NCBI GenBank assembly: GCA_026552955.1
Contig: JAPMTS010000030.1
Span: forward strand, 275 to 37,574
Reading direction: 5' to 3'
Source of the DNA: Candidatus Methanoperedens sp.
GTDB lineage: Archaea > Halobacteriota > Methanosarcinia > Methanosarcinales > Methanoperedenaceae
Length of the DNA stretch: 37,300 bases
Below are positions 21,606 through 37,300 of the stretch, in pieces (the first letter of the stretch is position 1; every line of letters begins with the position of its first letter). Made by a program: the position numbers and the translations under genes. The notes under the pieces are model-generated. The model saw only the letters and a program-made list of their open reading frames with translations. It did not search any database and was not told the DNA's origin.

Positions 21606-22040
21606 TTGAACCTGACCAGTATTTTCAATCCTTTCATGATCTGCCTCCTGCGCTCACCTCTACATAAGATTGCCAGCAAAAACACACTTCTCATAACATT
21701 TACTGGATGCAAGAGCGGCAGAAGATATACTACCCCTGTTAATTATGTGCTTGATGGTAATGTTATTTTCATAACAAGCCTGCACAGTCGCTCCTGGTGG
21801 AGGAGCCTGCGGAGAGGCGCTGCGATCAGTATACGCCTGAAAGGGCAGGATATGGAAACATACGGGGATGTCATTGAAGATGACGAGAATGTAACAAGAC
21901 AACTAATCGCATATCTTCAAAAGGTTCCGCAATATGCGCGATATTTCAAAGTGAATCTTGATCCTGATGGTAATCCAAACCCTGAAGATGTTGCTCAGGC
22001 GGCAAAGGAGAGAGTCATGATCCTGCTCAGATCAGGATGA
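21606..22040 (+). CDS. deazaflavin (F420)-dependent nitroreductase-like protein, second copy
   Basis: 144 residues, nearly the same as the protein at 6757 along its whole length: SIFNPFMICLLRSPLHKIAS, FTGCKSGRRYTTPVNYVLDG, LHSRSWWRSLRRGAAISIRL and NPNPEDVAQAAKERVMILL. Here the classic G-C-K-S-G-R-x-Y-x-T-P motif is intact. The start is TTG 21606 at the position of the paralogue's ATG. It is coupled to the radical-SAM gene by an ATGA overlap (22037-22040). A redox role using F420H2 fits the iron-sulfur neighbour, but that is inference. Confidence 0.8.
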   Translation: MNLTSIFNPFMICLLRSPLHKIASKNTLLITFTGCKSGRRYTTPVNYVLDGNVIFITSLHSRSWWRSLRRGAAISIRLKGQDMETYGDVIEDDENVTRQLIAYLQKVPQYARYFKVNLDPDGNPNPEDVAQAAKERVMILLRSG

Positions 22041-23263
22041 TCAGAATGCGATATGTTGCCGAAAAAAATCCGGAAAAATGCAGACAATGTGGATTTTGCG
22101 ATGAGGTAGCATGTTCAAGCAGGTATGTTGGGTATTCTGAGGAGTGCAGGGGATGCGGGGCGTGCAGTCTTGCCTGTCCTTATGAAGCTATTCAGATGAT
22201 TGAAATTCAGAATGGAAAGAGCATATCTATTACAGTGGATGGAGCAATTATTTCAGTTCCGGAGAGAGTTACTGTCAAAAAAGCGCTTGAGATGTGCGGC
22301 TATGAACCGTGTGATTTTCCAGGAGATGGAAATCTCTTCTCCCCCTGCAGGACCGGTGGATGCTGGAGCTGTGCGGTTCTCGTGAATGGTGAACTGATGC
22401 CATGCTGTGTCGCAGCAGTTAAAGAAGGAATGAATATTAACACAGAAACAGAGGTTACTCCAAAAAGACCTGTTCACGGCTGGATGGGGCATGCTGTTGG
22501 AGGTGTTGGTACTCCGTGGCGTTTGAAAAAGTCATCCGGTTTCATAGAAACAGCATGTTTTACCTGCGGATGTAACTTCCAGTGTATGCAGTGCCAGAAC
22601 TGGACCACGACATATAATGGAAGAGAGATCGCCCTGACTCCTAAAGAGGCAGCTTTACTCATGAGCGATGCGAGAAGAAACTATAGAGTGGATAGAATGG
22701 CTATTTCGGGAGGAGAGTGTACTCTGAACAGGAAATGGTTAATTGAATATCTCAGGGAATTGAAAAAGAAAAACACTGATGAAAAGGCACGTTTTCATGT
22801 GGATACAAATGGTTCGATACTGACACCTGATTATCTGGATGAACTGGTCGATGCCGGGATGACTGATATAGGCATAGACCTCAAAAGCTTCGAACTTGAA
22901 ACATTTTCGCACATGACAGGTGTAAATAACAGGGAAATAGCCAGAAAATATTTAGAAACTGCATGGAATGCGGTAAAGCATATTGTTGATTATTATCCTG
23001 AAAAAGTGTTTGTTGGTATTGGAATTCCATATAACAATAATCTCATCTCACTTGAAGAGATCCGTAAAATGGGGGATAAAATAAGAAATATCGATGAGAA
23101 TGTGCAGGTCTGCGTATTGGACTACAGACCAGCGTTTCGAAGACCATACATACAGAGACCGGAATATGAAGAAATGGTCAAAGTCTGGACAATTCTTTCC
23201 GGAACTGGTTTGAAAACTGTGATCTGCCAGACTGCCAACGGTCATATAGGGCCGGAATTATGA
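22037..23263 (+). CDS. radical SAM protein with N-terminal 2[4Fe-4S] and [2Fe-2S]-like domains
   Basis: 408 residues in three parts. Residues 15-47 hold two ferredoxin motifs (C15xxC18xxC21x4C26 and C37xxC40xxC43x3C47P). Residues 60-130 look like a plant-type [2Fe-2S] or SoxR-like cysteine loop (CRTGGCWSCAVLVNGELMPC). From 170 is a radical-SAM core with C179NFQC183MQC186 followed by QNW, as in pyruvate-formate-lyase-activase/AmrS-type enzymes, then ISGGECTLN as the SAM-binding GGE motif. Such enzymes cleave S-adenosylmethionine to start radical chemistry; the extra clusters would feed electrons. The target is unknown, with no glycyl-radical enzyme in the window. It is coupled to the F420-type gene upstream. 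Confidence 0.8.
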   Translation: MIRMRYVAEKNPEKCRQCGFCDEVACSSRYVGYSEECRGCGACSLACPYEAIQMIEIQNGKSISITVDGAIISVPERVTVKKALEMCGYEPCDFPGDGNLFSPCRTGGCWSCAVLVNGELMPCCVAAVKEGMNINTETEVTPKRPVHGWMGHAVGGVGTPWRLKKSSGFIETACFTCGCNFQCMQCQNWTTTYNGREIALTPKEAALLMSDARRNYRVDRMAISGGECTLNRKWLIEYLRELKKKNTDEKARFHVDTNGSILTPDYLDELVDAGMTDIGIDLKSFELETFSHMTGVNNREIARKYLETAWNAVKHIVDYYPEKVFVGIGIPYNNNLISLEEIRKMGDKIRNIDENVQVCVLDYRPAFRRPYIQRPEYEEMVKVWTILSGTGLKTVICQTANGHIGPEL

Positions 23264-25284: not shown

Positions 25285-25923
25285 TCACCCAATCACCCTC
25301 TCCATTATTTCAATCACTGTTTTTGGATACTTCTTTGCGTAGCTCATCAACTTCTCTTTTGAATCCTGCTTGGCCCATTCGGATATATCAAGTACCATCT
25401 TGTCATCCGGTACTCCATTATATTTCCAGATGTATATGAAGTCAAGGACAGTCTTTTCAGGGTCTGAATATCTGATGATCTCATCTTTTTTGTTTATTCC
25501 AAAACTAACCAGCAAAGGCGATATCCTGGTGAACTTGAATTTATAACCGGCTATGTTCATTGGATTTGCCCTGAACAGCGTATCATTGATCACATCCTCC
25601 ACCGCAAAATATTCATGAGTCATGTTATTTAGTTTCAGTGCAGTGTGCAGCCCAAAATACCATTTTCTCACGTTCTTTAATTCCAGCCCCTTTGCTACGA
25701 GTTCAAGATGACTGTATTTGCTCCTTCCAAGTTTCAACTCCTCAAGGGTCTTCACATAGAATATTCCTCTGAATATCCTTGTCAGGTAGCCCTGTGCAAT
25801 GAAATATCGGATCACGGTCGTATAGTCCAATTTCATTGATTTGCAGTACAGCTCCAGCTCCTTTGACGTGACGAACTCTTTGTTTTCTATACGAAGCTTT
25901 TTGAGCAGAACACTCATTTTCAT
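25285..25923 (-). CDS. abiEi: AbiEi-like antitoxin (type IV toxin-antitoxin)
   Basis: 212 residues: an N-terminal winged-helix domain (FVTSKELELYCKSMKLDYTT, VIRYFIAQGYLTRIFRGIFY) and a C-terminal domain with WYFGLHTALKLNNMTHEYFA and EIIRYSDPEKTVLDFIYIWK. The Y-L-x-R-I-x-R-G-I-F/Y-Y wing and the Y-S-D-P-E-K-T-V-L-D motif are hallmarks of AbiEi antitoxins, which repress their own promoter and neutralise the AbiEii nucleotidyltransferase toxin without complex formation. The toxin downstream is only a remnant, so this is an orphan antitoxin that could act as anti-addiction or merely persist. Palindromes lie right upstream. Confidence 0.8.
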   Translation of the reverse strand: MKMSVLLKKLRIENKEFVTSKELELYCKSMKLDYTTVIRYFIAQGYLTRIFRGIFYVKTLEELKLGRSKYSHLELVAKGLELKNVRKWYFGLHTALKLNNMTHEYFAVEDVINDTLFRANPMNIAGYKFKFTRISPLLVSFGINKKDEIIRYSDPEKTVLDFIYIWKYNGVPDDKMVLDISEWAKQDSKEKLMSYAKKYPKTVIEIMERVIG

Positions 25924-27718: not shown

Positions 27719-28906
27719 TTAACAATCAATATCAGGCCACCATGCATCAGGCAGTTTCTTCTTGATCTCATCCTTAGGCAAAGAAATGATTTTTGAATAA
27801 TCCGATTTAGGAATTCTTTTTCGTTCCAATTTGGATGAATGAAACTTATGATTATTTCGAATACAAATATTCTGACGCCTTACATTTTTCCTGAATTGTT
27901 TGACTTTAATATCTGTCCAACTTTTTTCTTTATTAATATAATAGTCATTTGGTGTTTGCTCGATATTACCATTATAATTATCAAATTCTTGAGTTAATGG
28001 TCTGTTCCTGCAATCTGCTATTTGCACACCGAATTCAAAACATTTTTTTCTTTTAGATTCCATCTCTTCAAAACTATAGTCACTGTTATATATCATAAAA
28101 ATTGAAATCTCTTTGGACTTATAACCCGCTTTACATAAGACATTTATCTGTTTTTTGATCTTTTTCCAGTCTTTGTAGGGCCCATCCCAGGCAATTCTTG
28201 GAATGATAAACTTTGCTTTTTTAAGCAATTTTGCAATTTTCAAAGTAAGTAATCTTCCATCAAATCCACTTTGGCTTTCAGAATATACATTTCTTCCATT
28301 GACTTTTAAATCCACAAGCTCTTTTAAAATTTCTTCAATAAATGGATTAGCCAGAAGGTTATTATCGTAAAAAACGAGTTTGTTTTTCACAATTTCATCT
28401 TTTATGCTTTCTTTTGGAATAAAATCTGGTTCTATCTTCCAAACTCCACAAAAAGGACAATGACGTTTACATCCTCGTGATGCATGAATTATCTGGTAAT
28501 CAACATCTATGAGACCATAATCAGGCGCAGATTTTTCGAAATCTTCAACAGTTCCTTTAATCGCGTTCACATTAAGTTCAGCACATTTTTTTTGAAATTC
28601 TGAATTCTCGAAAAATAGAGATACATAAATACCGCCGACATTAATTGGAGTATCAACGAATAAAGTCCTATAATAATTAACAGTATCCCAAAATTCTTGT
28701 TGCCAATATGTAAAAAGCGAGGTTATATATATTAAGTCTGGTTCAAAATCAACATTCACTTTACCATGAATAAGATGGAGGGTATTATTTAATGTTTTAT
28801 GGTATGATGCAATTTTCAATAATGGAATTGGAAGGAAGTCTTTATGGTTGAGACTTTTTGAGGGTATCGGAAATTTTGGTTGTACTAAAAGAATATTTTG
28901 ATTCAA
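27719..28906 (-). CDS. radical SAM protein with degenerate B12-binding-like N-terminus, last gene of the DISARM-like operon
   Basis: 395 residues. The start is TTG 28906 with GAGGT about 7 nt upstream; no in-frame ATG fits. Residues 1-130 have the strand/helix order of the cobalamin-binding domain seen in B12-radical-SAM proteins (ILLVQPKFPIPSKSLN, PDLIYITSLFTYWQQEFWDT, INVGGIYVSLFFE) but lack a D-x-H-x-x-G motif. The radical-SAM cluster is C146KRHC150PFC153 in HASRGCKRHCPFCGVW, followed by VFYDNNLLANPFIEEIL. The C-terminal 100 residues are basic and unassigned (KQFRKNVRRQNICIRNNHKF). It lies 39 nt after the 1100-aa gene on the same strand and shares its AT-rich codon use. It may modify a nucleic acid, protein or small molecule; typical DISARM carries a DNA methyltransferase instead. 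Confidence 0.75.
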   Translation of the reverse strand: MNQNILLVQPKFPIPSKSLNHKDFLPIPLLKIASYHKTLNNTLHLIHGKVNVDFEPDLIYITSLFTYWQQEFWDTVNYYRTLFVDTPINVGGIYVSLFFENSEFQKKCAELNVNAIKGTVEDFEKSAPDYGLIDVDYQIIHASRGCKRHCPFCGVWKIEPDFIPKESIKDEIVKNKLVFYDNNLLANPFIEEILKELVDLKVNGRNVYSESQSGFDGRLLTLKIAKLLKKAKFIIPRIAWDGPYKDWKKIKKQINVLCKAGYKSKEISIFMIYNSDYSFEEMESKRKKCFEFGVQIADCRNRPLTQEFDNYNGNIEQTPNDYYINKEKSWTDIKVKQFRKNVRRQNICIRNNHKFHSSKLERKRIPKSDYSKIISLPKDEIKKKLPDAWWPDIDC

Positions 28907-28945: not shown

Positions 28946-31900
28946 TCACTGCCCTATATTAACAATTGTACATTTTCTCATTTTTTCCTCAATTGCGATA
29001 TCTATAGGATTTAACATCTCCCCTTTTCCGTTGGCAACTCTATTTATGGAACGACCTACTTGTCGCAGAAAAGTACCGATTCTACTTCCCTTTTCATTAA
29101 TAATTTGATAATTTTCTATAATTCCACTATGCCCAATAAGTCGCCCTATGACCATTACATTTGTGTCATCATGAAATGAATAATGGGCAGCTTCATTTAT
29201 AGCAGTAGAACATAATTGTTTGAATGATGTTTCTTTATAATTTAATCCCATTATTTTAGCGATATCAAATAATTTAGAATATGTTATATTTTTAGTACCT
29301 TTTATTAAAATTTTCATCAAATTCTCTGGCACTATTAATCCTTTCCATATGCTATCGTCGATTAATAAATCTAAGGAACTTTGTAAATTCGAGTTATCAC
29401 AACGATGATCATAGCCAAATAACAGATTAAATATTTTGAAAAAATTCTCTTTTTGTTCTGGCGAAAGCCAATCAAATTTCTTCATTTTACTTTCATCATA
29501 ACTTTGTTTGAAATTCAAAGAATGAATAATTTCATAAAAAGTTTTCAAGGCAGTCAATGGTTTTGTAATTTCTTCCAACGACATATCGTCCTCCGCCAGT
29601 ATCGTTTTCAATAAGTAATTTTCTATACTTTCACGTTCATCAGTTTGTATGTATATTATCTGATCATTTTCAGAAAGTTCATCTATAGATGTAAGAATAT
29701 AATCGTCTCCTTGTTTTTTCCTTATCAATATGCCTCTTTGGAAAGCAATGCTGTCTGTTGTTCCTTCATCAAACTTTACATCAAAAGTTATGTATTCTTT
29801 AGAAGGATTATGAATGAATGATCTCTTTTGGGGTATATTGTGATCTTTACTTCGTATTTGAGACCATATTTCTTTAAGTGTTTTCATCTCTTCTATGTCG
29901 GTTTCATCAGCTCTGGATTCATTCAATTGTTCTTGCCTTATTAAAGAGTCTATTGGATTGTCGAATCTATCTTCTATCACAACACTAACATCTGGTTTAG
30001 GTGGCAATTCATAACGGCGGCTTTTATTTGTGTGATCAATTGAAAATAACAAGTCCCGTCTTGAGATATTGGTTTCCTTCTCTGAAATAAGATCTTTGTA
30101 TAATTTTATTTGTTTCAATAATTCTTTGAAATTTCTTCCAGGATAGGCAAAAAAGATAATTTTTTTGAACAATAACAAAGCATCGTACCCATGAGAAATT
30201 AATATGTCGTCATCAGATATTGTATGAAAAGGAATTGGACCTGGGATCAATAATTCGCTGGTTTTTATATGTTCATATGGCAAAGTTTGCATTGCTGAAA
30301 GATCAGCATAACTAATTAGTATCTCATGTTCAATAGAATTTTTATGAGAATTATTAGAGAAGTATTCAACTTTGACTTTTAGAATTGAATCGATTTGCTT
30401 TCTTTCAAATAAAATGTTTAATAGTTTTTGCTCATTGAATGAACCATCATCTTTTACAAAAGCTTTGTAAATAATAAAGTCGTTAAGAGATCTTTTCTTG
30501 ATAGTATCATTTCGATCGACCTCCAAATATTCCAATAGAATATTTATGTGTTCTGTTATTTCCAAAATCGGTTCTTTTTGAGAAAAAGTTATTTTGATTT
30601 CAGCATTTGTGTTAGAAATAAACCTTCGTTTAAAATTATGAATACTCGCCCTTTGTATCATTCCATTTTCATAGATAATTTCTCTAATTAGCTCACCATT
30701 TTTGGATTTATATTCTAAAAAAAGGGTGTTATTTGCCTTATGTATGTTAATAGAGCTTTTGATACTTTTGAATGAATTAAAATAATAACTTAAAGAATCA
30801 AAAAATGAAGTTTTTGTTTTAATGAGATGGGGATATAGATTTGCAGCAATAACAGATGTTTGTATTCTTTTGATTTCTTTGTTTTTACTTCCTTCGTGAT
30901 TCATTATATCATCAATTTTCTCAAGAAAATAACTCTGAAAAAGAGTTTTCTTAGTAACCGAAGAATTAGTATAAATTCCCCTTAATTCATATGACAAATC
31001 TCTAAATCTTTCTATATCAGAACATAAACCATTAAATGCCCTGATCGCATGATTCCCGTCTCCCTTTATAATAGAAATCGATTCGTTTATAGGAAGAGAC
31101 AACCACTTATTTTGTAATAAAAAACTCCTTTTAACCTCAGAAGGGCAAAGGAATGTATTTATGACAGGTGGAAATCTCAAAATGTTTTCATAAAATCCTC
31201 CAATTGGTTCATATTTTAGATGTTTCCAGATGTCTTCGATTATTGTATCAAAATACCAATTCCAATCTATAAGTTCATTTGCTGATAGATTTTCTTTATT
31301 TATGTTTAATGCTGGTAATCTTATCCTAAAATCTAAAGAATTTTCATCCGGATAATATACCTTGTCCCAAAGTTCTCCCTCCAATGAAAGATGAATTAAA
31401 TTTAAAGACGGCTTTTTAATTTTTTTGCATGTTTCCATACAAAGTCTTTTTCCTATATGGAACACATTGACATCATAATCATTTTTTATATTTATTAGAA
31501 ATGCAGATAGCCCTTTTAAGTAGGGCCACGAAAAGTGTAAAAGTAATTTTCTATCAGAATTCTTAATGGTTTTTATTAATTCAGTGATGTTATCCAGAGT
31601 ATAGCGCCTTTCATTTATCGATTCATAGATTATCAGCTTTGGATCAAATTTATCTAACTTATGACCAAGTTTTTCAAATTTTATTTCTTTCTTATCAATT
31701 AATCCAGCAGGAGTTATACCTTCTATGGGTATTGATACGATTTTAGGAATCTTTTGAAAACTACCATTATTTAATCTTTCTATAATTGTCTCTTCATATT
31801 TTCTTTTTCGTGATAAAGTACCGTGTGTAGGGTAAGTTTCAATATCCAATTCTGTCAGTTCATTTTGTTCTTCATCAATTTTACCACTACACCAAAGCAT

Positions 31901-32248
31901 ATCATAATAGAAATATCTTGAAGAAGAGGGAAATTTGCGTCGATATAATAAAGAGAAATATATTTTAGTATATTTTCCTTTAGTTAATTTAGTTCCATAA
32001 TAATCATTAAATAATAATTTTGGTATTCCGATAAGCACATCCTGATTTTTTTGATAGGCAAACAGACAAGAAATAATTGGTGTTAAATTTAATGGGCCCT
32101 GTGAAAAAATTATAGTTACTTTTTTATCAATTATAGAATCGAGGATACTCAGGGAAATAGGGGATAGATTTTCATTTTTTTCTTTAATTATAATTACTTG
32201 TTGATCTTTTTCATCTATGTATTCCAATGTGTCTAACTTTATTTCCAT
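28946..32248 (-). CDS. 1100-aa DISARM-associated protein, possibly DrmE-like
   Basis: No family is recognised with certainty. It starts at ATG 32248, overlapping drmC by 10 nt, so it is translationally coupled. Residues 1-330 look like two Rossmann-type strand/helix blocks (VTIIFSQGPLNLTPIISCLF, DVLIGIPKLLFND; then PKLIIYESINERRYTLDNIT, DRKLLLHFSWPYLKGLSAFL) but have no Walker A. A region near residue 820-880 (EYITFDVKFDEGTTDSIAFQ, GILIRKKQ, ELSENDQIIYIQ) is all-beta and resembles a hydrolase-associated beta module. The end is helical (MVIGRLIGHSGIIENYQIIN, FLRQVGRSINRVANGKGEM). Class 2 DISARM includes DrmE, a large protein without a clear enzymatic motif, and this may be a distant version; that is inference from size and position. 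Confidence 0.65.
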   Translation of the reverse strand: MEIKLDTLEYIDEKDQQVIIIKEKNENLSPISLSILDSIIDKKVTIIFSQGPLNLTPIISCLFAYQKNQDVLIGIPKLLFNDYYGTKLTKGKYTKIYFSLLYRRKFPSSSRYFYYDMLWCSGKIDEEQNELTELDIETYPTHGTLSRKRKYEETIIERLNNGSFQKIPKIVSIPIEGITPAGLIDKKEIKFEKLGHKLDKFDPKLIIYESINERRYTLDNITELIKTIKNSDRKLLLHFSWPYLKGLSAFLINIKNDYDVNVFHIGKRLCMETCKKIKKPSLNLIHLSLEGELWDKVYYPDENSLDFRIRLPALNINKENLSANELIDWNWYFDTIIEDIWKHLKYEPIGGFYENILRFPPVINTFLCPSEVKRSFLLQNKWLSLPINESISIIKGDGNHAIRAFNGLCSDIERFRDLSYELRGIYTNSSVTKKTLFQSYFLEKIDDIMNHEGSKNKEIKRIQTSVIAANLYPHLIKTKTSFFDSLSYYFNSFKSIKSSINIHKANNTLFLEYKSKNGELIREIIYENGMIQRASIHNFKRRFISNTNAEIKITFSQKEPILEITEHINILLEYLEVDRNDTIKKRSLNDFIIYKAFVKDDGSFNEQKLLNILFERKQIDSILKVKVEYFSNNSHKNSIEHEILISYADLSAMQTLPYEHIKTSELLIPGPIPFHTISDDDILISHGYDALLLFKKIIFFAYPGRNFKELLKQIKLYKDLISEKETNISRRDLLFSIDHTNKSRRYELPPKPDVSVVIEDRFDNPIDSLIRQEQLNESRADETDIEEMKTLKEIWSQIRSKDHNIPQKRSFIHNPSKEYITFDVKFDEGTTDSIAFQRGILIRKKQGDDYILTSIDELSENDQIIYIQTDERESIENYLLKTILAEDDMSLEEITKPLTALKTFYEIIHSLNFKQSYDESKMKKFDWLSPEQKENFFKIFNLLFGYDHRCDNSNLQSSLDLLIDDSIWKGLIVPENLMKILIKGTKNITYSKLFDIAKIMGLNYKETSFKQLCSTAINEAAHYSFHDDTNVMVIGRLIGHSGIIENYQIINEKGSRIGTFLRQVGRSINRVANGKGEMLNPIDIAIEEKMRKCTIVNIGQ

Positions 32249-33045
32249 ACCCTTCCTCGAGAAAACATGGAATCAAATACTTCACAAATTCCCACAACAT
32301 TAGCCCCTCTGAGCATACAACCGACTTCAAAATTTGCAACAAGACTGTTTCTGCGCAACTCTGCACTTCCTATATATGCTAAATCGTAATCAGCTATCAG
32401 AAGTTTTGCATGAGTGCTTGAAAATATTCCACCTTGTTCAGATGATATATGATAGTCAACTATTCTTAATTTTTCATTTTTTTCTAAATTCTTTGAGATA
32501 TCAATTATCCATCTAACTTCATCACCTCGGTTTTGAAACAATTCCCTTGATAGCAACCGTATCTCTACATTTCTTTCAAAGGCATCGATAATAAGCTGTT
32601 TTAAATCTGGAAAAGTGTCATCGTTAATGACATTTCTCTGAATAAACGGTGAACAAATTCGAAGAATCTTATTGGCAGATGTGATTATTTCACGAAAACA
32701 ATCGATGCTATCAATCTGCTTATTTCTATTTTCGATACCTCCAAGACTTAATTCTTTAAGTCTGGGTCTTGAAATAACTATAGAAATGTTTTCATTTGAA
32801 TTATTAATTGAAAATGGTTTTATTAAACATATAGAGGATTCATCCAATGAAGTTTTCTTTTCAATGATTTTAAGATTCCCGGTTCTCAACGCATTGCTAA
32901 TTGCATTTCGTAATTCTGCTTCTGTGGTAGGAATATTAGTATGATAATTCCGTATCAGTTCTTTGATACTACAAGTTTCATTTACCATCATATATCGGTT
33001 TATATATTCTTGAATTGCAACTTCAACATGGGGATTAATCTTCAT
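32239..33045 (-). CDS. drmC: DrmC-like phospholipase D-fold protein
   Basis: 268 residues with one HKD motif, H212-A-K214-L-L-I-A-D219, in SSTHAKLLIADYDLAYIGSA then ELRRNSLVANFEVG. That is the single phospholipase D signature with the usual downstream G-S and N. A strand/helix lead (ITSANKILRICSPFIQRNVI) and an N-terminal winged-helix-like segment (VNETCSIKELIRNYHTNIPT) precede it. One HKD per chain implies a dimeric active site. DrmC of DISARM has this architecture and is reported to be non-essential for defence. The ATG overlaps the drmB stop (ATGA), and its 3' end overlaps the 1100-aa gene. Confidence 0.8.
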   Translation of the reverse strand: MKINPHVEVAIQEYINRYMMVNETCSIKELIRNYHTNIPTTEAELRNAISNALRTGNLKIIEKKTSLDESSICLIKPFSINNSNENISIVISRPRLKELSLGGIENRNKQIDSIDCFREIITSANKILRICSPFIQRNVINDDTFPDLKQLIIDAFERNVEIRLLSRELFQNRGDEVRWIIDISKNLEKNEKLRIVDYHISSEQGGIFSSTHAKLLIADYDLAYIGSAELRRNSLVANFEVGCMLRGANVVGICEVFDSMFSRGRVWK

Positions 33046-35000
33046 GTGAGATACCCTTTTACAAATCTATCTGAACCACCAACAAGGGTTGATCTGTCAA
33101 TATCCTGATTGTAATTGCAGCAAACGAATTCTGGTACATAACTGCAAGCATTACATGCACCACCTTCGTCGATCATACAAGCAGGATCTTGAGGGCAATC
33201 ATTAGCAAGTTCCATCACTCTGCTGAACCAATCCTCCAGATGATAGTCGTATGTATATTCAAGACCGCCAATATTAATGCTATTTGTGGAATAAATAAAT
33301 ATGGAGGCGATATTCGGATAAACGATCTCAGAAACGCTTTGAAGGTCAAGACCCGTATCAATTGTGGATTGCTGCATAAGCATATGAGAGTATGAATGCA
33401 GAAGTGTATATACCGCTTTTTTGCAATTCTCATCCATAGAAATAACCTGTCTGTAATGTGTTCTGGCTTTTATCCCTGCTGGAGGTGAAATTTCAATTTT
33501 CGGTTTCACATAATCTCGATTCTCCTGCAACCAATTGAGAATTTTATTACAATCCAATTGGAAAAGTATGCCCTCTGTAAAGAAATTCCTCAAAAAAATT
33601 GTTGGTTTCTTATGGTCTTTTTTTCCTGTCTCTATAGGTCTAAACAATACCGGTTTCCTTCGAGTAGAACCTTCAATTATTCCCAAAATCGCTTGAACCA
33701 TATTAAGGTCTGGATGATGTACAACCTTTTTTAATCCAAATTTGTTACGCCAGACTTCGGGATTAGAGAGAAAAGTCTTTGGTTTATCTCTTTTTCCAAT
33801 GTTAGTAGAGCATAGTAGATTCAACCCTTCTAAATCATTTTCATCGAAATTTATTTCCTTCACAGAATTTAAAGCCTTTTTGATAAAATCTATTCCAAAT
33901 TTTTCTTGTATCCTGCTCCTTTCAGCACCATCTTGTATCGAAAGGTTTGCATTCTTCAAAATACGTTTTATTACTTTCAAAAATTGATTTTGGTTAAACT
34001 GAAATCGATCTGGTATTTTCATATCAAGATCATAAAAAACATCATCAATTATCTCATTCACTTTGACAAGCTTCCAGAAATTTTCTTCTTTTAATAAAGC
34101 ATTCTTGAACTCTGGAAGATACAGTTTAGCTTCCTCAAAATCAAGTTCAAAGAAGAAGTTAAAAGCTTCTGATAGTGCTTTTCCCTGAGTAGTTTTTCTA
34201 CCAGATTTATCAATTTCATCATGCTGCGGAATATCAGGAATAGAAATCACAAATGGATGAACAATGGCATTTGCTCTTGCAGGAATTCCTTTGAACCGTT
34301 TGGATTGGCATTTAGATAAACACTGACCGGTTTTTCGAATTGTATGGTCGCAATCATAAAAGTATAATCCCACTTCGTTTCCGCATTTTCTGCATTTTAT
34401 TTTATAGGAACTTATATCATCTTTCCCTCTTGTCCACCTTAATATTGATAGACCCTGTATTTCCCCACATTTTTTACAATCATTGAAAATCATTCTGTTG
34501 TTTTCCTGTTTTGCTAAATTAGTCATATAATGCAGAGGAAGGATTCTGCCGCATTCATCACAGAAAGTGAGAAATGTGAACTGCTCCCAGGGATCGGTAT
34601 CCTTATGGCCACATATTCGTTTTTCACCCAACATGAAATAGTTGTAACAATTATCTTTCTTGCATAATGCAGTTGGAGGATAGATTTCAAATCGTCCGCA
34701 TGCACCTTCTTCTTTGGCATCATCTATCAGTTTGATAGCTTCAATCTTGAGATCATAAGGATTTATTTCATGGAAATCTCCCCCATCATCTTTTCTTGAT
34801 GCTATTTTTCTATTGATTAACCTACTAAATATGGGCCTATATTTTTCAATATTAAAGTCACTGTTTTTATTAATATCGGTATAATTTGATTGTATTCTAA
34901 AACTTAAATATCTATTAAATTTTCTTGAAAAAAATTGATTGATATGCCCTTGAAAGAAACAGCTGTTCTCAGGGATTTGATGAGTAAAATCATCATCCAT
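33042..35000 (-). CDS. drmB: DrmB (DUF1998 protein)
   Basis: 652 residues. DUF1998 occupies the C-terminus: KKAVYTLLHSYSHMLMQQST, IFIYSTNSINIGGLEYTYDY and a final cysteine cluster NDCPQDPACMIDEGGACNAC then EFVCCNYNQDIDRSTLVGG. More zinc-type knuckles are upstream (CDECGR, CKKCGE, CRKCGN, CDHTIRKTGQC). In DISARM, DrmB binds DrmA to form the complex that loads on DNA with a 5' overhang. The R-S-T-L-V-G-G end is typical. It is placed between the helicase gene (2 nt gap) and drmC (ATGA overlap). The length matches known DrmB proteins of roughly 600-700 residues. Confidence 0.85.
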   Translation of the reverse strand: MDDDFTHQIPENSCFFQGHINQFFSRKFNRYLSFRIQSNYTDINKNSDFNIEKYRPIFSRLINRKIASRKDDGGDFHEINPYDLKIEAIKLIDDAKEEGACGRFEIYPPTALCKKDNCYNYFMLGEKRICGHKDTDPWEQFTFLTFCDECGRILPLHYMTNLAKQENNRMIFNDCKKCGEIQGLSILRWTRGKDDISSYKIKCRKCGNEVGLYFYDCDHTIRKTGQCLSKCQSKRFKGIPARANAIVHPFVISIPDIPQHDEIDKSGRKTTQGKALSEAFNFFFELDFEEAKLYLPEFKNALLKEENFWKLVKVNEIIDDVFYDLDMKIPDRFQFNQNQFLKVIKRILKNANLSIQDGAERSRIQEKFGIDFIKKALNSVKEINFDENDLEGLNLLCSTNIGKRDKPKTFLSNPEVWRNKFGLKKVVHHPDLNMVQAILGIIEGSTRRKPVLFRPIETGKKDHKKPTIFLRNFFTEGILFQLDCNKILNWLQENRDYVKPKIEISPPAGIKARTHYRQVISMDENCKKAVYTLLHSYSHMLMQQSTIDTGLDLQSVSEIVYPNIASIFIYSTNSINIGGLEYTYDYHLEDWFSRVMELANDCPQDPACMIDEGGACNACSYVPEFVCCNYNQDIDRSTLVGGSDRFVKGYLT

Positions 35001-35002
35001 AA

Positions 35003-37066
35003 TTATCTCTCCTTTTGTTTCAAAATAATTTCATCTTCTGGTTTTACTTCAAGAACCAGTTGTTTTTGTATTCCGCGCATACCGGATTGATTTCGGAAAA
35101 ATTGTTCACCAGATTTAGTCAATATATTTGGAAAGAATTCCTTATCTTTAGCATTACCTTTTGTTATCTGGTTAATTCTTTTCTCAACCTCATCACTAAT
35201 ATTTATATCAAGTCCGCCTTTCCCATATGTTTTTGTGATAAACTCTACCAACTCTTCCTTTTCTTTCAATGTTAATTCACTTACATGATTTTTAAGATAG
35301 AACGGTCTACCTTTTTTATTAGATAGATAATTAATAATCCCTGCACAGAACATTGAGTTTATTGTTTGTTGCAGTCCAAGGCGTGAAGCCCGATTTATTG
35401 GGACAGGCCTGACTTCATGATCAAGAGAATTATGGTACCTGTCAAAATTACGGAAAAAACTGTCATCTCGCACACGGTTTGGATAAAACCAAAGAAGTAC
35501 AATACCGAGATTTTTTCTACCAACTCTGGAAAGAGCTTGAATATATTCTGAAGTTGAATATGGCAATCCTTGGAAAATCATGAAGTTTAACTCTGTCAGG
35601 TCTACCCCATGCGATACAACGGATGTTGCATAAATTGGTTCAAATATTAGTCCGCCATTATCTACAATTTTGGGATCATAATTTTTGACAAAATATCTTA
35701 CTTTGTCAATTGCCTCTTTGAGTTGGTCAAGGCTGCTATCTCCCGTTAAAACCTCACCTTTGACATCCGAACCATTGAAATGTGTCTTTAATCGGTCTCC
35801 GACAACAGCATCTTTTAATCGCCCCATATCATATGCATCTTGTTTCTTAATGTGGTATGTTAATGGGATTAGATACTGGTTTATGAGTTCCTGTGCTTCA
35901 GAAGAGTCCTTCAAATCAAATTTGATAAAAAAACTTTTCGGATCTGAATTCAAATCTTTTTGAGCATTAATAATGAACTCTGCAAAATGAAGTAGAGTTC
36001 TGAGGGAGGCATAATGGTTATCCCTTAAATTAGGTTTCAAGCCAAATATTATTCGTTTAGGTCCTTCCTTTTTTTCAAAGAAAAAATCATTTTGACTGCC
36101 AGCACCTTCGGGGCAGCGACCAGGGATTACAAAATCTTTCTTATTATATAACTCTTCTATTTGCTTTCTTGTCCCATTCAAAGTGGCACTCATAGTGATA
36201 TGTTTTAATTTGTGGTTTGAGGTGTCCTCTATGATCGTTTCTATCAATCCTTCAAAATGTGCAGAAATTGTTCCAAAACCTTCCCTGAGCAAATGCATTT
36301 CGTCCTGAATAGAAAGTAAAGGCCCACTATAATTTTTCGTATTTTCACCAAGATTTTCACATTTGAAATCCTCTTCTTGTTTATCCTCACATTTATCACC
36401 AGACTGGATGAAACCATGTCCTTCTGGGCACATGCTTCCTGATCCTCCAAGCAAACTACGAGCCCTGCGCTGCGAAGACAAACCAGCCCATTTATCCACT
36501 GTAGATACAACCACAGTGGGTCTCCACCTGAAAACTTCTCTATCGCTCTGATAAATGTAATATTCGCCTCCACATTTATCACATTTATGAATTATCCGTT
36601 TGCCCTTTTTGTCATCGATAAGGCGGATATTGCCTTTCGAATCTGGAGGGCATAAAGGACACTTTGATATTATTTTTGATATTGGCGCAGGAGATATTAA
36701 TTCCTTTTTTTCGTTATGTAGCGTCTTTTTAACTTTAACATATAAATCTGGAAAATCATCGTCACTTCCAACATAATACCCGAGAGAAAATGGAGACCCC
36801 GAAAACATATCATTATTTTTTTCTCTCACCGATTCAGCATGAATTATGATACTTGACACTCGCTCAAGCTGTTGTATAGATAACATTCTCAATGGAAATT
36901 TCACTATTGCGCTTACTCCTTCTTTTTTTCCAGTCATTCGTTCATAAAATGACGTGAAAACGACAAGAGCGAAATAAGCTTCTGATTTTCCGCCACCTGT
37001 ATCCACATGAAGTACATTCACAACATCCAGATCTTTCTTTTCTACCACCGATTCAATACTTGACAA
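35003..37066 (-). CDS. drmA: DrmA-like SF2 helicase, 5' end disturbed
   Basis: 687 residues from TTG 37066. Motif I is HVDTGGGKSEAYFAL (24-30), then RPTVVVSTVDKWAG, motif II QDEMHLL (DExH, 255-258), motif III MSATLNG, and motifs V-VI VVSHGVDLTELN and EYIQALSRVGRKNLG. Zinc-type cysteines are inserted (CPLCPP, CDKCGGEY). This set is that of DISARM DrmA. The frame stays open for 53 more codons upstream, to 37225, encoding DrmA-like sequence (NPNVREAFLKTNETFENYYL, GWRLFQIAFFLSS). It has no ATG and stops at TAG 37226-37228. DrmA proteins usually carry several hundred further N-terminal residues, so this gene is truncated, frameshifted, or an unusually short form. Confidence 0.8.
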   Translation of the reverse strand: MSSIESVVEKKDLDVVNVLHVDTGGGKSEAYFALVVFTSFYERMTGKKEGVSAIVKFPLRMLSIQQLERVSSIIIHAESVREKNNDMFSGSPFSLGYYVGSDDDFPDLYVKVKKTLHNEKKELISPAPISKIISKCPLCPPDSKGNIRLIDDKKGKRIIHKCDKCGGEYYIYQSDREVFRWRPTVVVSTVDKWAGLSSQRRARSLLGGSGSMCPEGHGFIQSGDKCEDKQEEDFKCENLGENTKNYSGPLLSIQDEMHLLREGFGTISAHFEGLIETIIEDTSNHKLKHITMSATLNGTRKQIEELYNKKDFVIPGRCPEGAGSQNDFFFEKKEGPKRIIFGLKPNLRDNHYASLRTLLHFAEFIINAQKDLNSDPKSFFIKFDLKDSSEAQELINQYLIPLTYHIKKQDAYDMGRLKDAVVGDRLKTHFNGSDVKGEVLTGDSSLDQLKEAIDKVRYFVKNYDPKIVDNGGLIFEPIYATSVVSHGVDLTELNFMIFQGLPYSTSEYIQALSRVGRKNLGIVLLWFYPNRVRDDSFFRNFDRYHNSLDHEVRPVPINRASRLGLQQTINSMFCAGIINYLSNKKGRPFYLKNHVSELTLKEKEELVEFITKTYGKGGLDINISDEVEKRINQITKGNAKDKEFFPNILTKSGEQFFRNQSGMRGIQKQLVLEVKPEDEIILKQKER

Positions 37067-37202: not shown

Positions 37203-37290
37203 TCAAGAGATTGTCGGAAAAGTCCCTAACTTCACCATATTTTAATTAATGTTATAACCGTCTGTTCGGATTATTTTTTATATAAACATT
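37203..37290 (-). promoter_or_regulatory. promoter-like segment and out-of-frame ATG at the drmA 5' end
   Basis: On the - strand a TATA-like TTTATATA (about 37279-37286) lies some 40 nt before ATG 37238, which reads MVKLGTFPTIS then TGA at 37203-37205. The DrmA frame is open from 37225 in another frame, so a one-base shift between 37203 and 37225 would join this start to the helicase. Alternatively this is foreign sequence joined to a broken drmA. The remaining bases to 37300 show nothing more. Confidence 0.4.
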
Positions 37291-37300
37291 ATGTATCGAA

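Follow-up and report, generated by a model that had tools for sequence, protein, structure and literature searches.

Lying at the end of a cassette that resembles the defence island system associated with restriction-modification (DISARM) is a gene for a radical S-adenosylmethionine (radical-SAM) enzyme, hereafter rSAM. It was found in a stretch of 37,300 nucleotides from Candidatus Methanoperedens sp. (assembly GCA_026552955.1, contig JAPMTS010000030.1, positions 275 to 37,574), which we refer to as the window. A first-pass annotation of the window had placed an open reading frame at 27719-28906; it is present as 395 codons on the minus strand, and the plus strand across the same positions is stop-rich and holds no such frame.

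The DISARM-like cassette

The cassette runs on one strand in the order drmA-drmB-drmC-[1100-aa DrmE-like gene]-rSAM, with rSAM as the last gene, and its genes either overlap or are separated by gaps of no more than 39 nt. The features are as follows.

27719-28906, minus strand: rSAM, radical-SAM enzyme of 395 aa, TTG start, GAGG 8-11 nt upstream
28517-28906, minus strand: predicted B12-binding-like Rossmann domain, rSAM residues 1-130, without DxHxxG (model, fold matches and motif check)
28448-28471, minus strand: predicted CxxxCxxC cluster-binding motif, C146, C150 and C153 (from sequence; invariant in 76 of 76)
27722-27916, minus strand: predicted basic helical C-terminal region, rSAM residues 331-395, net charge +10 (model and charge count)
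28946-32248, minus strand: DrmE-like divergent protein, 1100 aa (family-profile comparison)
32239-33045, minus strand: DrmC-like PLD-family protein (PADLOC DrmC 4.5e-14; PLDc_2 1.3e-11)
33042-35000, minus strand: DrmB-like protein (PADLOC DrmB 1.3e-23; NCBIfam DrmB_fam 3.1e-20, 72.5 bits versus a cut-off of 240)
35003-37066, homology to about 37213, minus strand: C-terminal two thirds of the DrmA helicase (PADLOC DrmA 4.3e-87)

DrmA, DrmB and DrmC are named by both PADLOC and NCBIfam, all under the NCBI curated cut-offs. The 1100-aa protein alone gave no family match at E 0.01 in the family scans, and its family profile matched that of DrmE-type proteins (98.3 %, E 2.3e-14, residues 29-394). 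The DrmE_C domain was present in both scanned proteins of the compared DrmE-type set, and in the domain scan of the DrmE-like comparison it was weak (two of seven members, best E 0.0053). Canonical DISARM typically has DrmMI and/or DrmMII, as far as the relevant part of one account goes (PMC9142583). The window operon shares DrmA, DrmB, DrmC and a DrmE-related protein with class 2 DISARM (DrmA, DrmB, DrmC, DrmE, DrmMII), but it has no DrmMII or any other detected methylase, carries rSAM instead, and has a DrmA from a clade of its own; neither DrmMI nor DrmMII was detected anywhere in the window, which covers the DNA up to the contig end. Because a methylase, a defining feature of DISARM, was not found, the operon is filed as DISARM-like and not as DISARM, which is also how the first-pass annotation had described it.

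The guanine-plus-cytosine content is 29-36 % across the five cassette genes versus 43-49 % for five other window genes, a pattern as for an acquired island, and rSAM is single-copy in the source genome. Homology of the window DrmA to the DrmA of a relative breaks off at residue 362, which leaves about 87 bp up to the contig end. The last 87 bases (37214-37300) show no DrmA match though the frame should go on, and their sequence occurs nowhere else in the genome; a break in the window drmA, or a misassembly, is therefore possible at this point.

Fold and motifs of rSAM

The CxxxCxxC motif (C146, C150 and C153), noted as intact in the first-pass annotation, is kept in all 76 aligned relatives. 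Pfam Radical_SAM (PF04055) matches rSAM at E 5.6e-6 and 27.1 bits, narrowly under a curated cut-off of 29.5 that is a detection threshold and not a biochemical feature; the motif and the modelled fold outweigh this narrow miss, and on these grounds we place rSAM in the radical SAM superfamily. The AF2 model (pLDDT 95.8, pTM 0.91) consists of a B12-domain-like Rossmann domain and a radical-SAM barrel, and the partial TIM barrel is seen both in the model and in the fold matches. The nearest match is AprD4 (Z 23.5, 338 residues, 3.2 Å), followed by MgmA (Z 22.2, 303 residues, 3.1 Å), an MTAB model and MiaB (Z about 19.8), CysS (19.8), RimO (19.7) and TsrM (19.2). AprD4, MgmA, MiaB/RimO and TsrM, with their B12-like or UPF0004 N-terminal domains, share the fold with rSAM over 303-338 residues (Z 19-23.5) at 8-14 % identity, and differ from it in that rSAM has neither DxHxxG nor a three-cysteine N-domain cluster.

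A cobalamin-binding-like N-terminus without its ligand motif and a basic C-terminus had been proposed from the sequence, and both were borne out: residues 1-130 form a Rossmann fold, which can be aligned to B12-binding domains from B12/radical-SAM enzymes, and the net charge of residues 331-395 is +10 in a protein with a pI of 9.1. DxHxxG is the cobalamin-binding motif of cobalamin-dependent radical-SAM methylases; it is absent from the window rSAM, and only one of the 76 relatives has it in the first 150 residues. MiaB and RimO bind a second cluster through three N-terminal cysteines. No such MiaB-type triad is present in rSAM, where C108 is the sole cysteine in residues 1-130, in a column that is cysteine in 41 of the 76 relatives. 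By motif, a cobalamin methylase and a MiaB-type enzyme were thus both ruled out. C-methylation, which the first-pass annotation had given as an example of such a mark, would be only one option, the cobalamin motif being absent. AprD4 dehydrates a sugar by radical chemistry that needs no B12, methylation is the reaction of MgmA and TsrM, and MiaB and RimO add methylthio groups; the nearest folds of rSAM are thus those of a sugar dehydratase, a B12 methylase (MgmA) and methylthiotransferases, which do not share one reaction.

Comparison with viperin, with RlmN/Cfr and with the B12-radical-SAM methylases had been suggested alongside the annotation. Folds of the last type proved near (MgmA, TsrM), while viperin matched over the barrel only (Z 10.4), level with many unrelated radical-SAM enzymes, and on this basis rSAM is probably not a viperin homologue. 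RlmN and Cfr, which have a methyl-carrying C-terminal cysteine, were not among the fold matches listed. The relatives fall into two subfamilies split by an insertion at residues 14-23 (59 rows in I, 17 in II), and C299 is kept in 55 of the 59 rows of subfamily I and is not conserved in subfamily II. Sequence searches of the PDB, whether started from the protein or from the A2 profile, returned no relative; a search of a viral structure library returned general radical-SAM proteins only; and no PADLOC family matches rSAM.

Linkage to one DrmA clade and exchange among modules

Searches with DrmA baits gave matches in 20 of 395 and 17 of 392 genomes, together 28 distinct archaeal genomes, and a count seeded in this way is free of the circularity of defining partners from rSAM neighbourhoods. 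Sixteen of the 28 have the window DrmA type and 12 have other DrmA, with type assigned by best BLAST match and not by tree for G033, G040, G058, G427, G470 and G472 in the first group and for G418, G501, G528 and G543 in the second. The rSAM gene is in the locus in 13 of the 16 (G000, G023, G024, G031, G108, G213, G305, G311, G366, G425, G427, G470 and G472); the G472 copy is truncated, with its first 108 residues missing, beside a DrmE without its C-terminus. Contig breaks fall inside the operon in G033 and G058, where rSAM stands beside the DrmE-like gene on another contig, and G040 has a decayed drm locus with no rSAM. In that last locus (L175; G040:C4:168000-187999), about 1.1 kb is inserted in the drmA frame, and the 20 kb fetched holds no rSAM. 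None of the 12 other DrmA loci contains rSAM (G003, G279, G294, G314, G321, G322, G325, G332, G418, G501, G528 and G543). Linkage of rSAM to one DrmA clade is therefore near-constant and the two are almost inseparable; the tie of rSAM relatives to defence genes, on which the first-pass reading had been made to depend, is strong.

DNA methylases were detected in none of the 13 rSAM-carrying loci, whereas eight of the 12 with other DrmA have one (Fisher p 4.6e-4, without correction for relatedness). In some of the eight the methylase is a fragment or stands several kb away from the drm genes, and since the methylase queries came partly from the "other" DrmA loci, a distant methylase may have gone undetected, a risk that is higher in the rSAM group.

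A DrmA tree with 20 rows unites all 11 archaeal DrmA that are linked to rSAM in a single clade (support 100/100, branch 1.43), with G023, G024, G031 and G425 entered as the same records L049, L051, L050 and L062; L135, a contig of the viral collection, is a separate case placed among the other DrmA. The rSAM tree (107 rows; a quick tree with SH-aLRT support only) has a different shape, in which the 15 Drm-linked copies need 10 label changes, at least seven of them forced by supported branches. These copies are more clustered than shuffled labels (10 changes versus a mean of 14.2, with none of 500 shuffles as low) and are scattered among copies that adjoin PbeC/DndE-like, ParB-SNF2, HSP90-like-ATPase and type IV CRISPR genes. 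The place of rSAM varies as well: it follows the DrmE-like gene in the window and precedes drmA in L120, L172, L176 and L208. The single DrmA clade, the scattered rSAMs and their varying place together point to a Drm clade that retains an rSAM yet has acquired different ones, with rSAM exchanged between restriction-type modules. Such retention with exchange is what one expects when a gene provides a single function that its module requires, for example a mark of particular specificity.

The family is sporadic, with a match in 26 of 298 related genomes. Relatives in GTDB genomes amounted to 402 candidate stretches from archaea and bacteria, of which the best 80 were kept; close relatives bear the label Ca. 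Methanoperedens or Methanoperedenaceae. A survey seeded from rSAM covered 100 loci (79 genomic and 21 on viral contigs; L122 was dropped for want of a called frame); its genomic part comes from the best 80 of the 402, so it leans to close relatives, and it includes cut contigs. Of the 100, 79 have a partner, a share that is descriptive only, the partner clusters being defined from the same neighbourhoods. HSP90-like ATPase genes are near rSAM in 35 loci, the PbeC/DndE/PLD-helicase module in 16, the ParB-SNF2 module in 12, the ParB420/c18 pair or a member of it in 11, Drm genes in 10, an N6-methylase cluster in four, DGQHR in three and type IV CRISPR in two. Partner identities include PbeC (PADLOC, 1.7e-215), a ZorD/DpdE-like SNF2 protein and type IV Cas7 (5e-79), with HATPase_c_3, ParB_N and DndB as further domains. 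Where a named partner adjoins rSAM, the two mostly share a strand and either overlap or stand a short distance apart. PbeC/DndD-like ATPase and DndE-like genes adjoin relatives of the window rSAM. A 330-aa gene, c10, lies near rSAM in nine loci; the model of one member (pLDDT 86.8) has a predicted class I methyltransferase fold, nearest to Trm1 (Z 15.2, 231 residues, 4.2 Å). A constant DGQHR/DndB partner was considered and rejected, the DGQHR motif being near rSAM in only three of 109 loci; beyond those three come a DndB match in L172 and the plasmid L186.

Several of these neighbourhoods deserve separate mention. Six loci (L112, L137, L138, L142, L144, L148, and in part L105) have a four-gene module of a ParB-like gene, a 139-aa gene, an SNF2 gene (ZorD/DpdE-like helicase) and a second ParB-like gene adjoining rSAM, often with an HSP90-like ATPase; two of its proteins were scanned and gave no such system name in PADLOC. 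L207 and L208 carry a gene of 480 and 474 aa, respectively, that by eye looks similar to the DGQHR/DndB type. On the viral contigs L146 (7076-12609) and L149, which share one gene order, an rSAM relative stands between type IV CRISPR csf-like genes (typeIV_Cas7 5e-79) and a second radical-SAM gene (PF04055). The archaeal plasmid L187 (LC711081.1, 6597-15136) has an rSAM relative whose annotation includes an intein homing endonuclease. Next come genes for three DNA methyltransferases, a YaaA-like protein, a 3'-phosphoadenosine-5'-phosphosulfate (PAPS) reductase and a DNA glycosylase, so that by gene content the stretch looks like a DNA-modification cluster. Alphaproteobacterial plasmids also carry an rSAM relative, and one record reads helicase, ParB and DGQHR genes, then rSAM, then an ATP-binding gene. 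All 18 rSAM relatives tested match phrog_9298, "radical SAM domain protein", which is also annotated in a Methanomassiliicoccales virus; the entry gives no function. One cited section describes arCOG00938, "Radical SAM superfamily enzyme", as frequent in archaeal dark-matter islands (PMC4158269); it may or may not be the family of the window rSAM.

Elsewhere in the window are an AbiEi-like protein (25285-25923, minus strand; PADLOC 1.9e-49), cytochrome c and COX1-family oxidase genes, the latter possibly NorB-like, in this archaeal genome (12694-15393, plus strand), and a second radical-SAM protein, unrelated to rSAM, with 2Fe-2S and 4Fe-4S domains (22037-23263, plus strand).

A candidate self-mark enzyme

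The reading we favour, at about even odds, is that rSAM is a dedicated part of a methylase-less DISARM-like operon, in the methylase's place, marking nucleic acid as self. The enzyme would use its [4Fe-4S] cluster and SAM to mark cellular nucleic acid, probably DNA, with a mark other than the usual 5-methylcytosine or N6-methyladenine; by this mark the DrmA-DrmB translocase would know DNA as "self", and together with DrmC it would act on DNA that is unmarked. One enzyme family would thereby be traded among several restriction-type modules. DrmAB is by analogy a plausible reader of the mark because the ATPase of canonical DrmAB drops on methylated DNA, according to the pertinent part of PMC9142583. 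The partners of CxC/PbeC systems named in the relevant passages of another account are phosphorothioation or, in some, methylase genes, with no mention there of an rSAM partner (PMC10853773); the rSAM relatives that come after PLD-helicase, PbeC-like ATPase and DndE-like genes differ from this description. We favour the modifier because rSAM occupies a comparable place in both the DISARM-like and the CxC/PbeC systems. Its partners, which include DNA translocases and nucleases as well as ParB/DndB-like and methyltransferase-fold proteins, suggest that the substrate is nucleic acid. Radical-SAM catalysis, a nucleic-acid substrate and a self-mark function are what we infer for rSAM. In the literature searched, in which subscription journals were thinly covered, nothing linked rSAM to DISARM, Pbe or ParB-SNF2 operons, and earlier comparative-genomics work may exist.

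Several observations weigh against this interpretation. The window drmA is incomplete at the contig end; 22 of the 100 surveyed loci are without any main partner module; and the partners could act on DNA while rSAM itself acts on a protein or a small molecule. All 12 other DrmA differ from the rSAM-linked type by ancestry, three of them (G332, G322, G314) being very distant, so the methylase contrast may come partly from descent. Among the Drm loci of the rSAM-seeded set, L079 has rSAM together with a C5 methylase gene immediately upstream of drmA, Dam-type and N6_N4 methylases occur in L053 and L101, and other rSAM loci with nearby methylases also exist. The strict notion that rSAM replaces the methylase everywhere was rejected on these exceptions; rSAM is therefore not always a substitute.

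A protein might instead be the substrate, rSAM altering a component of the system, e.g., DrmE or DrmB, so as to arm or restrain it. MgmA and RimO, of the same fold, do act on proteins, and rSAM travels with the whole operon, but its partners are wholly different in the Drm, Pbe-like, ParB-SNF2 and CRISPR-like contexts and offer no common protein substrate, which leaves this alternative doubtful. We regard as unlikely an effector of the viperin-like kind raised in the first-pass annotation. Upon infection, rSAM would here produce a nucleotide analogue or a small molecule with antiviral action, and the Drm proteins would be the sensor. Viperin is a radical-SAM antiviral enzyme whose reaction is formally a dehydration, and the dehydratase AprD4 is the nearest fold of rSAM. 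Prokaryotic viperin, however, has in common with rSAM only the barrel and a defence role, aligning at Z about 10 versus 19-23.5 for AprD4, MgmA, MiaB, RimO and TsrM; no PADLOC family, as noted, matches rSAM; and viperins are not known as part of DrmAB operons. The recurrent ParB/DGQHR/DndB-like, SNF2 and methyltransferase-fold partners suit modification better. Of the two roles between which the annotation had wavered, a modifier installing another mark is thus best supported, by the methylase contrast and by modification- and restriction-type neighbours, and the viperin-like effector is unsupported.

Alternatively, rSAM might remove or alter phage base modifications and so enable the restriction module. 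Its exchange between modules aimed at foreign DNA would suit such a role, but its presence on phage contigs and its company on the archaeal plasmid (three DNA methyltransferases, a PAPS reductase and a glycosylase) fit the making of marks better than their removal, and we judge the idea quite improbable. That rSAM is a housekeeping tRNA, lipid or cofactor enzyme merely adjoining the operon is highly improbable: the fold is common to MiaB and RimO, but the gene is sporadic and nearly inseparable from one DrmA clade, and it lacks the three N-terminal cysteines of MiaB.

Returning to rSAM as a maker of self marks, we suggest more tentatively, with confidence short of even, that the family is an exchangeable module placing a new DNA (or RNA) mark, and that it serves three or more restriction machineries unrelated to one another (DISARM-like, PbeC/DndE-like and ParB-SNF2), perhaps also type IV CRISPR loci. 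Because the same family is traded between several restriction modules, the chemistry of one rSAM would inform many systems. Were rSAM not a modifier, it would still be another defence-tied radical-SAM lineage besides viperin. If it does make a mark, radical chemistry would here yield a novel type of nucleic-acid modification, and this would account for the avoidance of self by DrmAB in archaea with a methylase-less DISARM-like operon. Beside methylation, phosphorothioation and 7-deazaguanine, there would then be a further route of epigenetic self-recognition.
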